Assembly (NCBI RefSeq): GCF_900403705.1
Contig: NZ_OUNR01000001.1
Span: 434,001 to 498,000 of the forward strand
DNA: 64,000 bases
Source: Nitrospira lenta
GTDB lineage: Bacteria; Nitrospirota; Nitrospiria; Nitrospirales; Nitrospiraceae
Direction: 5' to 3'
This document shows positions 24,731 to 33,797 of the stretch, one piece after another. Numbering within the stretch: the stretch's first letter is position 1; every line of letters begins with the position of its first letter. The notes under the pieces are model-generated. The model worked only from the letters and a program-made list of their open reading frames with translations. It made no database searches and was not told the origin of the DNA. The position numbers were made by a program, and so were the translations under genes.

Positions 24731-25804
24731 TCAGTTCAAATTGCGTAAAATGGCATCGCCCATTTCGGTCGTGCCGACGACTCTGGTGTCCGGACCCTGA
24801 ATGTCCTTGGTGCGGTACCCCATATCGAGCGTTTTGACGATGGCCTGCTCGATCGCCTCGGCTTCCTTCTCGAGTTTGAACGCGTAGGACAACATCATGC
24901 CCGCGGAGGCGATCGTCGCGATGGGATTCGCAATGTTCTTGCCTGCGATATCCGGAGCGCTGCCATGAATCGGCTCAAACAATCCGACCTTGGCGCCGAT
25001 ACTGGCCGACGGCAACATGCCGATCGATCCGGTCAGCATGGCCGCTTCATCGCTGAGAATGTCACCGAAAATATTGTTGCACACCATGACATCGAACTGG
25101 CGCGGATTGCGGACCAGCTGCATCGCGGCATTGTCGACATAGATATGATGCAATTCGACGTCCGGATAACTCTTCTGCACCTCGATCATCACTCGGCGCC
25201 ATAATTCGGACGACTCCAGCACATTCGCCTTATCGACCGACGTGACTTTTTTCCGCCGCTTGCGCGCCGCTTCGAAGGCCACCTTGCCGATCCGGCGAAT
25301 CTCTTCGGTCGTATAGACTTCCGTGTTCACCCCGCGCTCTTCACCGTTCGGCAGCTTTTCAATCCCCTTCGGTTTCCCGAAATAGATGCCACCGGTCAGT
25401 TCACGCACGACAAGAATATCGATCCCTTCAATCACTTCTCGCTTCAACGTCGAAGCATCCACCAGGTTGGGATACACCTTGGCCGGACGTAAATTGGCAT
25501 AGAGGCCCAAGGCTTCACGGATACCGAGTAGTGCCCGCTCGGGACGAAGGCTATACTCCAACCCTTCCCATTTGGGGCCACCGACGGCGCCCAGCAAGAC
25601 CGCGTCGCTTTGCTTGGCCAAGGCCAATGTCTCTTGCGGCAGCGGCACACCCACTTTGTCGATCGCCTGCCCGCCGATGTCGGCCGAGGTGAATTCAAAT
25701 GTGTGCTGATACTTTTCCCCGATGGCCTGCAATACCTTGACCGCTTCGGGAACGATCTCGCGCCCGACTCCATCACCCGCCAAGACTGCAATCTTCGCTT
25801 TCAC
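24731..25804 (-). CDS. leuB: 3-isopropylmalate dehydrogenase
   Basis: A 357-residue enzyme that oxidises and decarboxylates 3-isopropylmalate to 2-oxoisocaproate with NAD+, the third step of leucine synthesis. Conserved blocks are [82 protein letters not shown] and [17 protein letters not shown]. The start codon is GTG, with AAGGAG nine bases upstream. It lies two genes downstream of leuA. The isomerase genes leuCD are not in the window. Confidence 0.97.
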
Positions 25805-25840: not shown

Positions 25841-26203
25841 CTACTCCGTGACCTGCTCATCTTCAATTCGCCAGGCCGGATCAACCAGACACAAAAATTC
25901 AATGTCCGTCATACCGATGTTTTCGAGCGACTGATTCTCTCCAGGCGGCACGTACACAATCGATCCGCCTTCGACGAGCTCCGTCTCGCTCCCGATACTG
26001 AACCGTCCCTGCCGTCCGATAAAGTAGTACACCTCTGACGACGTCAGCTTGTGCCACTTGGACCGCCGTCCGGGAGCCAACCGGCCATGCGCAAGACTAT
26101 AGCCCAGCTGCACCGGCTGTTTGGCCGGATGCAACAGTTCGCGAAGAGCCGTATGGTCTCCGGCAAGAAATTCCGGGCATTCCAAGAGAGTGCGCTTGAG
26201 CAT
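25841..26203 (-). CDS. Small cupin-domain protein
   Basis: A protein of about 120 residues with a single cupin barrel: motif 1-like region WHKLTSSEVYYFIGRQGRFSI and motif 2-like GSIVYVPPGENQSLENIG. Only one clear metal-type His is seen in motif 1 (WHK), so metal binding is uncertain. Small cupins serve as sugar isomerases, dioxygenases or ligand sensors; the substrate cannot be told. It lies between leuA and leuB, 36 bp before leuB, and so is probably expressed under the leuA T-box. The frame also opens at a GTG at 26245; the ATG at 26203 is preferred but not certain. Confidence 0.75.
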   Translation of the reverse strand: MLKRTLLECPEFLAGDHTALRELLHPAKQPVQLGYSLAHGRLAPGRRSKWHKLTSSEVYYFIGRQGRFSIGSETELVEGGSIVYVPPGENQSLENIGMTDIEFLCLVDPAWRIEDEQVTE

Positions 26204-26287
26204 GGGAGACCGCCCCAACCTGTCCGCAACTAGGCTAACCGCCACGTGCGGACACCAGGGGCCGTCACTCTAGCGTGGCGAGAACGG

Positions 26288-27835
26288 TCAAATCAAGCGG
26301 ACTTTCTGCTCCCCCTCTGCCTGTTTCGAGGCCATATACGCGAGCCGATTCAGCGCATTGAGGTACGCCCGGGCCGCGGCCATGATGATATCTGTATCCG
26401 CCCCATGCCCTGAGACCGTGCGGCCATCCTCTTCCACGCGCACGGAGACTTCACCCTGCGCGTCGGTCCCGCCCGTAATGGCATTGACGCCGAACATCAA
26501 CAGCTTACTCTTCGTCTTCGTGATCGCAGCAATCGTCCGATAGACCGCATCGACCGGCCCGTCGCCGGTGCCTGATTCCGTAATCACCTGACCGTCAATG
26601 TGCAGCTCCACCGTCGCCGTCGGCACGAGGTTCGTGCCGCTTTCGACATGGAATGACTTCAACACAATCCGCTCCGTCATCTTGGCCAGCTCTTCCGACA
26701 CGATCACTTCCAAATCTTCCTCGAAAATTTCCTTCTTCTGATCCGCCAGCTTTTTGAAACGCTCAAACGCATGGTTGAGCTCTTCATCGCTGAGCTTGTA
26801 CCCCAAATCTTCCAACCGCTGCCGGAATGCATGACGCCCGGACAACTTGCCCATGACCATCTTGCTCTCGATCAACCCGATCGATTCCGGCCGCATGATT
26901 TCGTAGGTGGTCTTATCCTTCAACAACCCATCCTGGTGAATACCGGACGTGTGCGCAAACGCATTCGCACCGACGATCGCCTTATTCGGCTGCACGACCA
27001 TCCCGGTAATCTTACTGACTAACCGGCTCGTCTTGGCGATCTCTTCCGTCCGGATGCCCGTATCGGCGCGATAAAAGTCCTTCCGGGTCCTGAGTCCCAT
27101 GACGATTTCTTCCAACGACGTGTTGCCGGCCCGTTCGCCGATCCCGTTGATCGTACACTCCACCTGACCAGCCCCGTTAACGATCGCCGCCAAACTGTTC
27201 GCAACGGCGACACCCAAATCGTTGTGGCAATGGACCGAAATCACCGCCTGCTTGGCATTGGGCACTTTGTCGAAAATCCCTTTGATCAACGCGCCGAACT
27301 CTTGTGGCACGGCATAGCCCACCGTATCGGGAATGTTGATTGTCCCTGCTCCGGCGGCAATCACCGCTTCAATCACCTCATAGACATAGGACTGGTCCGA
27401 GCGGCTTGCATCCATCAAGGAGAATTCCACGTCAGGCATATAGCTCCGCGCGCGCTGCACCATCTCGACCGCGCGCTTCTTGGCTTCCTCTCGCGTCATC
27501 CTGAACTGATGCTTCAGATGGATGTCGGACGTCGAGAGGAACGTGTGAATCCTGGCCTTCGGCGCGCCCTTGAGCGCTTCCCAGGCCCGGTCGATGTCTT
27601 CCGGACGAGCCCGCGCGAGACTACAGACCGTCGGCCCTTCGACCTCCAATGCAATTCTGCGGACCGCTTCAAAATCACCGGGTGAGCTGTAGGCGAACCC
27701 GGCCTCGATGATATCGACGCCGAGCCGCGCCAGCTGCTTCGCCACCATGACTTTCTCTTCCACGTTCATGCTGGCGCCGGGCGATTGCTCCCCGTCGCGC
27801 AACGTTGTATCGAAAATACGAATCATCCGTTCCAT
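26288..27835 (-). CDS. leuA: 2-isopropylmalate synthase
   Basis: A 515-residue enzyme that condenses acetyl-CoA with 2-oxoisovalerate, the committed step of leucine synthesis. The catalytic TIM barrel begins RIFDTTLRDGEQSPGASM and includes ISVHCHNDLGVAVANSLAA (metal-binding HxH) and GIGERAGNTSLEEIVM. The C-terminal regulatory domain for leucine feedback (about 385-510) contains ATVELHIDG, GTGDGPVDAVYRTI and ALNRLAY. GGAGGAG precedes the ATG. A leucine T-box riboswitch lies in its 5' leader, so it is controlled both by tRNA-Leu charging and, by family, by leucine. Confidence 0.97.
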   Translation of the reverse strand: MERMIRIFDTTLRDGEQSPGASMNVEEKVMVAKQLARLGVDIIEAGFAYSSPGDFEAVRRIALEVEGPTVCSLARARPEDIDRAWEALKGAPKARIHTFLSTSDIHLKHQFRMTREEAKKRAVEMVQRARSYMPDVEFSLMDASRSDQSYVYEVIEAVIAAGAGTINIPDTVGYAVPQEFGALIKGIFDKVPNAKQAVISVHCHNDLGVAVANSLAAIVNGAGQVECTINGIGERAGNTSLEEIVMGLRTRKDFYRADTGIRTEEIAKTSRLVSKITGMVVQPNKAIVGANAFAHTSGIHQDGLLKDKTTYEIMRPESIGLIESKMVMGKLSGRHAFRQRLEDLGYKLSDEELNHAFERFKKLADQKKEIFEEDLEVIVSEELAKMTERIVLKSFHVESGTNLVPTATVELHIDGQVITESGTGDGPVDAVYRTIAAITKTKSKLLMFGVNAITGGTDAQGEVSVRVEEDGRTVSGHGADTDIIMAAARAYLNALNRLAYMASKQAEGEQKVRLI

Positions 27836-28029
27836 GGTTTCTCCTCCTTCACGCCTCCATCAGGATGCTCAAACAGACCACCGGGCTCACCCGCCCAACC
27901 CCGGCGCGCCGTGACGCGCCGTTCCACGGACAAGGCCACATGGACGACAATCCCGGAGGCGTACTTCCGCAGTACACCGAAGGGGTCGACGATCGAGAAC
28001 GCTGCAGGGGAGCTTGTTCGTCAGCCTTA

Positions 28030-28288
28030 AATAGAAAAAGCCTTCGCCCCCCATTACGGTCAGGGACGAAGGCTTCGTGCGCTTCGTGGTACCACCCTGG
28101 TTCGGCAACGAATGACCTGTGGTCATCCATCACCCTTCATTGGCCCCTTACGAGGGCGAAGCGGAATCCATTACTCGAGGTTCACGGATTCGGCTCGGAG
28201 GCGAGTTCGGCGATACACAGACCGGCTTGCACCACCCGCCGGCTCTCTCGAATCTGTGAGGTTCGCGTACTACTCCTCGTCGTCGCCT
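28030..28288 (-). promoter_or_regulatory. T-box leader (tRNA-Leu sensing, specifier CUC) of leuA
   Basis: Read on the minus strand, the leader shows the standard T-box parts in order. The base of stem I with GAGGAGTAGTA starts near 28282. The AG-bulge AGAGAG and distal loop GGTGGTGCAAGCCGG follow (about 28247-28224). The specifier region GAACTCGCCTCCGAG has codon CTC (Leu) at 28205-28203. The T-box consensus AGGGTGGTACCACG is at 28098-28085. The terminator stem AAGCCTTCG/CGAAGGCTT with a T tract is at 28076-28034. Uncharged tRNA-Leu(GAG) would pair with both specifier and T-box and let transcription into leuA continue. The leader starts directly at the pssA stop, so RNA may come from the upstream operon or from a promoter inside pssA. 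Confidence 0.93.
28034..28076 (-). terminator. Regulated terminator of the leuA T-box
   Basis: The stem AAGCCTTCGTCCC/GGGGGGCGAAGGCTT is followed by TTTTTCTATTT on the minus strand. Part of its 5' side overlaps the T-box bulge (ACCACG side), giving the exclusive terminator/antiterminator choice. About 195 bases separate it from the leuA start. Confidence 0.88.
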
Positions 28289-29091
28289 TACGATTTGGTT
28301 TCTATCACAGGCTGATCGGACTTGGAAAGAGGTTTCTTCCCAACCGTTTTTGCCGCCAGCCAGAATAGTCGCTCCGTCGGCCCCATCAACGCATAGCCGG
28401 AAAACACCACAAACAACATCACTTCTGGCCAAGCCGCGATCATCATGAGCGCAAGAATGCCCCAGACGAGATAGGTAATCTGCTGACGGCCTTTGAACTT
28501 CAAATCCTTAAAGCTGCGGTACTTCACGGTACTGACCATGAGGAACGAGAGCGCGAGCGTAATGACCAGCACTAAAAGCGGTTTCACTTCCGTGCCCATT
28601 CGCACAATATGATGGTCGAGAATGACCAACGACGCGATCACCCCGGCAGCTGCGGGAATCGCCAACCCGGTGAAGTACTTGCTGTCAGCCAGCGCGACCG
28701 TTGAATTGAAACGCGCGAGCCGCACCGCTCCCATCGCCACATAGGCGAACATCACGGCCACGCCGAACATGCCTTGGCCACTCAGCGCCCAGGAATAAAT
28801 CAGCAGACCCGGAGCGACTCCGAACGACACCACGTCGGACAGAGAGTCGTACTCCAATCCAAAATGACTTGTGCTGTTGGTCAGACGAGCGGATTTTCCG
28901 TCAAGCACATCAAAAATCATCGCGACTAAAATGGCAATCGCGGCGGCGATATAATTGGCGTTGAAGACGGACAGGATCGCGTAGACACCGCAAAACAGAT
29001 TCCCCGTCGTGAAGAGATTGGGAATCAGATGCATGGCCTGGCGCTTCCGTGCTTCCTTCCCCAAGCTGTGTCGCAAGCCCTGTCCCTTCAT
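28288..29091 (-). CDS. pssA: CDP-diacylglycerol-serine O-phosphatidyltransferase
   Basis: A 267-residue membrane enzyme making phosphatidylserine from CDP-diacylglycerol and serine. It shows the CDP-alcohol phosphotransferase signature DG-x2-AR-x8-G-x3-D-x3-D in DGKSARL...GLEYDSLSD (near residue 65), preceded by IPNLFTTGNLFCG and with about six to eight hydrophobic helices. The open frame runs upstream to 29289, but the ATG at 29091 overlaps the psd stop (ATGA), so the two genes are translationally coupled. PS made here is the substrate of the Psd enzyme encoded just upstream. The stop is followed at once by the leuA T-box. Confidence 0.95.
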   Translation of the reverse strand: MKGQGLRHSLGKEARKRQAMHLIPNLFTTGNLFCGVYAILSVFNANYIAAAIAILVAMIFDVLDGKSARLTNSTSHFGLEYDSLSDVVSFGVAPGLLIYSWALSGQGMFGVAVMFAYVAMGAVRLARFNSTVALADSKYFTGLAIPAAAGVIASLVILDHHIVRMGTEVKPLLVLVITLALSFLMVSTVKYRSFKDLKFKGRQQITYLVWGILALMMIAAWPEVMLFVVFSGYALMGPTERLFWLAAKTVGKKPLSKSDQPVIETKS

Positions 29092-29738
29092 CGCAGGTCT
29101 CCCAAGATGGTGGATCCGCCTTTCACTCGATCTCCCACGGCCACTCTCAACTTCGTGCCGATGGGAAGAAACGTGTCCATCCGCGACCCAAACCGGATTA
29201 ACCCAAACCGCTCTCCCAGCGTTGCCCGCTCTTGGGGAGACACCCAGCAGACAATCCGCCTGGCAATGAGTCCCGCCACCTGCACACACAAGACCTTGGC
29301 ACCGCTGACGGTTTTGATCATCACGGCGTTCTGTTCGTTCTTGATCGTCGCCTCCGGCTTACTGGCGACCAGAAAAAGACCCGGCTGATACTGCACCTCT
29401 TCAATGACCCCTTCACAGGGAATCCGATTGATGTGCACATCGAATACGTTCAGGAAAATCGTGACCCGAAGACTGCGCTCCTTGAGATAGCGCGGCTCAA
29501 ACTCTTCTTCAATGGCGATGACTTTCCCATCGCCGGGTGCCACGATCAGCCCTGGTCCTTGCGGAATCACTCGCGCGGGATTGCGAAAAAACCACGCCAC
29601 GAACAGCGTGAGTCCGGCCGCCAGCACGGCAACCGGCGTCCACCCGAACCATCCAGTCAATAGTGTAGCGCCCGCTGCCGCTCCGATGAAGGGAAATCCC
29701 TCCTTGGCAAACGGGACACCGACGGCACGATCAGCCAC
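29088..29738 (-). CDS. psd: Phosphatidylserine decarboxylase proenzyme
   Basis: A 216-residue proenzyme of the short (PSD-A-like) class. It converts phosphatidylserine to phosphatidylethanolamine. Two N-terminal hydrophobic segments (about 15-50) anchor it; the core includes GLIVAPGDGKVIAIEE and VFDVHINRIPCEGVIEE. The self-cleavage Gly-Ser that yields the pyruvoyl group is in RFGSRMD, Ser near residue 184, so the alpha chain is only about 33 residues. It overlaps pssA by four bases and follows ilvC by 14 bp. Confidence 0.95.
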   Translation of the reverse strand: MADRAVGVPFAKEGFPFIGAAAGATLLTGWFGWTPVAVLAAGLTLFVAWFFRNPARVIPQGPGLIVAPGDGKVIAIEEEFEPRYLKERSLRVTIFLNVFDVHINRIPCEGVIEEVQYQPGLFLVASKPEATIKNEQNAVMIKTVSGAKVLCVQVAGLIARRIVCWVSPQERATLGERFGLIRFGSRMDTFLPIGTKLRVAVGDRVKGGSTILGDLR

Positions 29739-33261: not shown

Positions 33262-33290
33262 ATCCTAACACCACGCCAGATGAGGGTCAA
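33262..33290 (-). promoter_or_regulatory. Sigma70-type promoter of ilvBNC-psd-pssA
   Basis: Minus strand: TTGACC (33290-33285), a 17-base spacer, TAGGAT (33267-33262). The start site would be near 33255, giving a leader of about 125 bases before ilvB. No T-box or leader peptide was recognised in it. Confidence 0.6.
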
Positions 33291-33361: not shown

Positions 33362-33797
33362 GCGCGAGCGAGGAAACCTATAAGCCGGATTCTGTCCCGC
33401 ACGAACCGGAGTTCATGCCTAGGTGATCATTTCTCTGGGATTCGAGTTACCCCGAACCTCGAGCGACCTACCCGAAGACCTCGACCGGGCCAATCGTTGT
33501 GCCGCGTCCTTGCGAACGCCGCACGTGTCTTCCTATTTGGCCTTGCACCGGGCGACGCTTACCGTGCCGGCGATGTCACCATCCCCGCGGTGGGCTCTTA
33601 CCCCGCCGTTTCACCCTTACCTGATCCGTAGCGACTAGATGGGATCCCGTCGCCTTGGCCATCGGCGGTTTGTTTTCTGTGGTGCAGGTGTCGGATTGCT
33701 CCGCCTGGGAATTACCCAGCGCCCCGCCCATGGAGTCCGGACTTTCCTCCCGGCACACAAGGTGCCGAGCGATCACCCAGTCTCCTCTCTCGCGCCC
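33362..33797 (-). ncRNA. rnpB: RNase P RNA (type A)
   Basis: The minus strand shows the universal elements: GAGGAAAGTCCGGACTCC near the 5' side and ACAGAATCCGGCTTATAGG near the 3' end (P4 partners), with GGTAAGGGTGAAACGG and GGTAAACCCC-type connecting regions between. The ends pair as P1: GCGCGAG (33795-33789) with CTCGCGC (33368-33362), followed directly by TTTTTT, which serves as terminator. It forms the catalytic part of the ribozyme that trims tRNA 5' ends. The length of about 436 nt is normal for type A. Several open frames on both strands in this stretch are chance. Confidence 0.95.

Follow-up and report, generated by a model that had tools for sequence, protein, structure and literature searches.

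The gap between pssA and leuA in Nitrospira lenta raises the question of what kind of regulatory RNA occupies it and whether this RNA acts as a switch inside one operon or heads a separate leuA transcript. It lies in the window, i.e. the whole stretch of 64,000 nucleotides analysed here, where the genes follow the order ilvB-ilvN-ilvC-psd-pssA-leuA, with pssA at 28288–29091 and leuA at 26288–27835, both on the minus strand. A sequence-only reading had proposed a leucine T-box riboswitch in front of leuA in a Gram-negative lineage, and the host, belonging to the phylum Nitrospirota, agrees with the latter part. In the consulted part of Sun 2013 (PMC3766115), T-boxes are limited to Firmicutes, Actinobacteria, Chloroflexi and Thermus/Deinococcus, with Geobacter as an addition, and in that of Wels 2008 (PMC2494555) the proteobacterial leuA T-boxes are those of Geobacter and Pelobacter. 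No paper on a Nitrospira T-box was found in the literature searched, the surveys of Vitreschak 2008 and Gutierrez-Preciado 2009 lying outside it; since automatic annotation may, moreover, already list Nitrospira T-boxes, no first sighting is claimed.

The search of the 3.76 Mb genome with the Rfam covariance model of the T-box (RF00230) yielded a single match and no second one, positioned at 28059–28292 of the minus strand, scoring 95.8 bits against the gathering cut-off of 93 (E-value 9.2e-20) and covering the model end to end (1–219 of 219). The joint pattern of the specifier loop and the T-box core had one match in the window and none in 100 shuffles. All the elements listed in the sequence-only reading—the AG bulge, distal loop, CTC specifier, AGGGTGGTACCACG and terminator—are present on the minus strand. 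The leader also adjoins the pssA stop as had been stated, although with slightly different borders: Stem I starts at 28287, one base past the stop codon (28290–28288), and the T-run of the terminator ends at about 28035.

Concerning the architecture, all parts of which are given in minus-strand orientation, Stem I (28192–28287), delimited by the Rfam alignment, consists of the K-turn region, the specifier loop and the distal part binding the tRNA elbow; its helices 1–5 have 87.5–100% of their cells paired in an alignment of 42 Nitrospiraceae leaders, a hand-picked spread of the family without long insertions. The AG bulge (AGAGA, 28248–28244) and the distal loop (28237–28227), together spanning 28227–28248, were located from the sequence, the Rfam alignment and conserved columns, and the specifier codon CUC for leucine (28203–28205) is found in a GAA-CU context that is invariant in the 42 leaders. 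Stem II (28165–28191; helix 6), with an S-turn-like AGUA/GAA and two-sided changes in five of its six pairs, is followed by the Stem IIA/B pseudoknot (28143–28164; helices 7–8, 97.6–98.8% of cells paired), helices 6–8 taken together reaching 97.6–99.2% with compensatory changes. Stem III separates the pseudoknot from the antiterminator (28062–28098; helices 11–12, 99.6–100% paired), which carries the T-box bulge UGGU (28094–28091), and the leader is closed by an intrinsic terminator followed by the T-run (28035–28073; 97.8% of cells paired). The 5′ arm of the terminator is the 3′ arm of the antiterminator, the two hairpins being mutually exclusive. Standard pairs make up 94.1% of the proposed pair cells of the alignment, a value falling to 32–47% when the partners are slid by 1–3 columns, and two-sided changes were seen in 35 of the 58 pairs, compared with 25.8 in shuffles. 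The genome has one gene for the matching tRNA-Leu(GAG)—the tRNA named also for the Geobacter case in the consulted parts of PMC2700814 and PMC2494555—with the 3′ end ACCA, complementary to the UGGU bulge.

The long Stem I with the elbow-binding part, Stem II, IIA/B, Stem III, antiterminator and terminator are all shared with class I T-boxes of the B. subtilis tyrS type (classes according to the consulted part of PMC10482949), from which the element differs in no structural respect, but only in its placement between the genes of one cluster. It is a well-supported full-length leucine T-box riboswitch of an ordinary kind in an under-documented phylum. Between the terminator and the leuA start there is a repeat-like stretch (27854–28026), which has 10 matches in its own genome including itself; many other leaders of Nitrospira have a similar sequence after their terminator.

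The score, just 2.8 bits above the cut-off, might point to a T-box that has decayed and no longer functions, but most helices exhibit compensatory changes, the antiterminator pairs are invariant, and the element is retained in 108 of the 110 genomes of the Nitrospiraceae (family f1), which makes decay extremely improbable. The two genomes without a match are not losses, because in G388 leuA is cut by the contig start and in G336 the assembly contains no leuA match, so that loss was rejected for both. It is also very unlikely that the specifier frame is shifted and another tRNA is read: frame offsets have been considered for some T-boxes, but CUC is the specifier in 74% of leucine T-boxes (both from the consulted part of PMC7778990), the target is leuA, and GAA-CUC is kept in 124 of 127 related leaders, CUG, likewise a leucine codon, being the sole variant (3/127). 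The proposed leucine specificity is thus borne out by the specifier, the tRNA and the absence of any non-leucine codon in these relatives. The set of 127 was obtained from 128 leader entries (126 fetched loci and two further f9 leaders) by dropping the half-leader of G316. The three CUG leaders come from G163, G236 and G362 (L106, L117, L151); a changed tRNA repertoire behind them was rejected, as tRNA-Leu(GAG) is still encoded there, 98–99% alike.

In the phylum as a whole, a T-box match (E ≤0.001) was obtained in 125 of 395 genomes, 58 of them above the Rfam cut-off and 67 below, the latter having been identified by synteny and core motifs. Outside the Nitrospiraceae, 17 genomes from families f6, f9, f15, f16 and f19 possess it. 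Taken by family, the T-box is present in six of seven f9 genomes and in five of six f16 genomes. The target gene proposed at the outset, leuA, is found downstream in 122 of the 126 fetched loci, the remaining four ending at contig edges, and pssA is found upstream also in 122; three of the others have fewer than 300 bases upstream and G296 is the true exception. Both the near-universality in the Nitrospiraceae and the variation among the relatives had escaped the sequence-only reading.

With regard to named genomes, the nearest locus among the matches listed is that of Nitrospiraceae bacterium AM_1104, with 98–99% amino-acid identity for IlvB, IlvN, IlvC and LeuA. Among 80 such loci in the matches listed, 18 are of the delta type, with leuA downstream in 16 and pssA upstream in seven, whereas Chloroflexi-type loci in the same listing often have ilvB downstream instead. 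The comparison with Geobacter suggested earlier thus proved fruitful: the leuA T-box of Geobacter and Pelobacter (Desulfuromonadales) is, like that of the window, a CUC leucine T-box with a terminator before leuA, and the seven loci mentioned above have the same pssA/leuA junction. Since this junction is seen in both Nitrospirota and Desulfuromonadales, the operon and the junction are common to the two phyla. The Desulfuromonadales element differs from that of the Nitrospiraceae by a promoter-like site upstream, present in all 17 loci scored.

This difference bears directly on the question of where transcription of leuA starts. A separate leuA transcript headed by the T-box, with a promoter in the 3′ end of pssA and a normal 5′ leader, is favoured by the Desulfuromonadia, where at this junction a site scoring at least 9 of 12 in a scan for −35/−10 matches was found in 17 of 17 leaders scored (shuffles 20.9%), mostly 12–21 nt before Stem I. 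Only two of the 108 Nitrospiraceae leaders reached that score, however, which is at the chance level (shuffles 4.1%), and a separate scan of the window from 27800 to 29400 returned no promoter-like site. As a positive control, the scan detected sites in the same genome at 15 of 24 tRNA genes, at rnpB and upstream of ilvB; promoters of other types, or one inside pssA, would escape it. The distance from the pssA stop to Stem I in the Nitrospiraceae is 0–91 nt, being at most 6 nt in 58 of the 108 leaders. A separate leuA transcript is therefore considered unlikely, and with promoter-like sites at the chance level the Nitrospiraceae T-box is probably a switch inside one ilv-leu operon. The transcript probably starts at the promoter-like site upstream of ilvB (TTGACC-17-TAGGAT, 33262–33290, minus strand), a consensus match only. 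It should be mentioned that the RNase P RNA gene (33365–33788), which has its own promoter-like site, lies directly upstream of ilvB in the same direction, the site belonging to ilvB being located between these two genes.

Taken together, we put at roughly nine in ten the probability that the element is a tRNA-Leu(GAG)-responsive, transcription-terminating full-length T-box inside the ilvB-ilvN-ilvC-psd-pssA-leuA cluster, working as follows. RNA polymerase arriving from the ilv part would transcribe the leader right after the pssA stop codon, so that leuA would be expressed by read-through and the T-box would decide whether the polymerase continues. Uncharged tRNA-Leu would pair with the CUC specifier and, via ACCA, with UGGU, holding the antiterminator and letting transcription proceed into leuA and probably also into the next two genes; with charged tRNA the bulge would be unusable, the terminator would form and leuA would be turned off, the ilv genes and psd-pssA staying on. 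The operon had already been read as apparently split into an unregulated upstream part and a tRNA-regulated leuA-leuB part, and such a split fits the promoter scan. A putative cupin-like gene (25841–26245, minus strand; label read from the sequence), conserved in most relatives, intervenes between leuA and leuB (24731–25804, minus strand).

The leaders of the relatives are not uniform. According to a simple motif and length test applied to the 127 leaders, the elbow-binding part and Stem II occur together in 119; six—all from f9—are without the former, and two, from G003 and G031 of f16, are without the latter, none being without both. In the f9 leaders Stem II and the pseudoknot are still present, and a strong terminator is followed by a T-run, whereas G003 and G031 are also without IIA/B, yet carry the leucine-specific CUC. 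A T-run was present in 125 of the 127 leaders, G364 stopping at a contig end and the run of G129 being interrupted. With their short Stem I devoid of the elbow-binding part and Stem II kept, the six f9 leaders resemble class III/IV T-boxes (actinobacterial ileS), but have an intrinsic terminator and a leucine specifier, while classes III/IV are described in the consulted part of PMC10482949 as mostly translational in control. According to the consulted part of PMC7583486, transcriptional T-boxes cannot do without the elbow-binding part. Similarly, G003 and G031 share the absence of Stem II with class II T-boxes, but read leucine, class II being described as glycine-specific in the same part of PMC10482949. 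Provided that they work, the f9 leaders and those of G003 and G031 depart from both class rules.

Several leaders contain additional sequence. An extra hairpin-like insertion is seen within the Stem I distal loop of G304, G334 and G286 (L125, L130, L122), and long insertions occur in the Stem II region of G013, G022, G039 and G002 (L142, L144, L148, L138), those of G022 and G039 containing a GTCATTCCCGCG..GCGGGAATCCAG repeat. In nine genomes of the window's own genus (G274, G320, G097, G202, G027, G050, G288, G266 and G220) the 5′ strand of Stem I is longer by about 100 bases, and the end of pssA is therefore located some 160–180 nt ahead of the start of the Rfam match.

The sister family f2 presents yet another state of the junction. 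The order psd-pssA-leuA-leuB is retained there and no T-box match was obtained. In 14 of 20 genomes a terminator whose stem is GCCTTC...GAAGGC occupies the gap, and the genera g19 and g28 mostly retain GCCTTCGTCCC, the T-box arm. G000, G081 and G135 each contain a single copy of the pattern GCCTTC-N(6-30)-GAAGGCTTTT. The uniqueness of the terminator stem as a proof of descent had to be softened, as the stem is found elsewhere in four of the 20 f2 genomes. The f2 genomes were part of a 40-genome set that also covered 13 f1 genomes, where it was at the junction in seven and elsewhere in three, and four f9 genomes, in two of which it recurs as a dispersed repeat at places other than the junction. 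Two f9 genomes, G161 and G326, carry dispersed copies of a GCCTTCTTCTGAGC..GGAAGGCTTTT type palindrome at several places.

Ahead of the f2 terminator, eight of the 20 loci have a leucine-rich ORF with 5–8 leucines in 15 residues, exceeding all 300 shuffles, and two more have one at p = 0.013; the other 10 were not significant or yielded none. A leader-peptide signal throughout f2 is consequently unsupported: L205, L257, L210, L211, L220 and L202 were not significant, and no leader ORF was found at L209, L214, L206 and L207, the region of L209 and L214 having been covered only in part. In genus g16 the ORF follows AAAGGA and reads MDQWQGKGR..LLLGDA.LTLA.LL....TP, and seven ORFs of equal length show a synonymous fraction of 0.39, compared with 0.24 expected by chance, none of 500 random sets being as high. 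Competing hairpins in the f2 leaders were predicted from single-sequence folds. The leader ORFs of L248 and L205 have an inserted repeat and are still open to a stop before the terminator. With its leucine-rich short ORFs and predicted alternative hairpins, f2 resembles the leucine leader-peptide attenuator of S. aureus ilv-leu, from which it differs by a terminator resembling that of the T-box; the contrast between S. aureus ilv-leu and B. subtilis is known (consulted part of PMC5794164 for both), and replacement between T-box and leader peptide has been described in general (consulted part of PMC2965389).

On the LeuA tree, the support of which is SH-aLRT only and was obtained by a quick method, f2 is recovered as a single clade nested within the T-box group (98), located beside the genera with the CUG specifier (93), its nearest neighbours; the T-box label requires at least seven changes. 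The T-box would thus apparently have come first at the f2 locus and the leader peptide later, the reverse order or a transfer being conceivable as well. The LeuA survey comprised 176 of the 270 genomes of the phylum in which no T-box was matched; in many of them pssA abuts leuA and leaves no space for a leader. At L219, L222 and L236 (f3, f5 and f7) the gap between the two genes holds a bare terminator-like hairpin with no visible sensor.

The states of the Nitrospiraceae, f9, f16 and f2 can tentatively be brought together by regarding the pssA/leuA junction of the Nitrospirota as a single orthologous site at which a leucine T-box was remodelled in situ, a possibility that deserves serious consideration though we would not yet rely on it. 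The T-box would be a promoterless intra-operon switch in the Nitrospiraceae; it would have lost the elbow clamp and kept the terminator in f9, and lost Stem II while reading leucine in the two f16 species, never both; and in f2 it would have been replaced as a sensor by a leucine-rich leader peptide with the terminator kept, a new sensor then acting through the old output device.

The interest lies in the setting of the element and in the junction variants of its relatives. A whole Nitrospirota family sharing an operon with the Desulfuromonadales is relevant to the question of whether T-boxes were passed on laterally or predate these phyla. The natural variants of f9 make it testable whether the elbow clamp is dispensable for a transcriptional T-box, and those of G003 and G031 whether a T-box not reading glycine can function when Stem II is missing; at the f2 locus, one amino-acid sensor seems to have been exchanged for another upstream of a retained terminator. 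For the organism itself, ilvBNC is also required for valine and isoleucine, and an internal switch would leave these genes, together with the lipid genes psd-pssA, outside leucine control.
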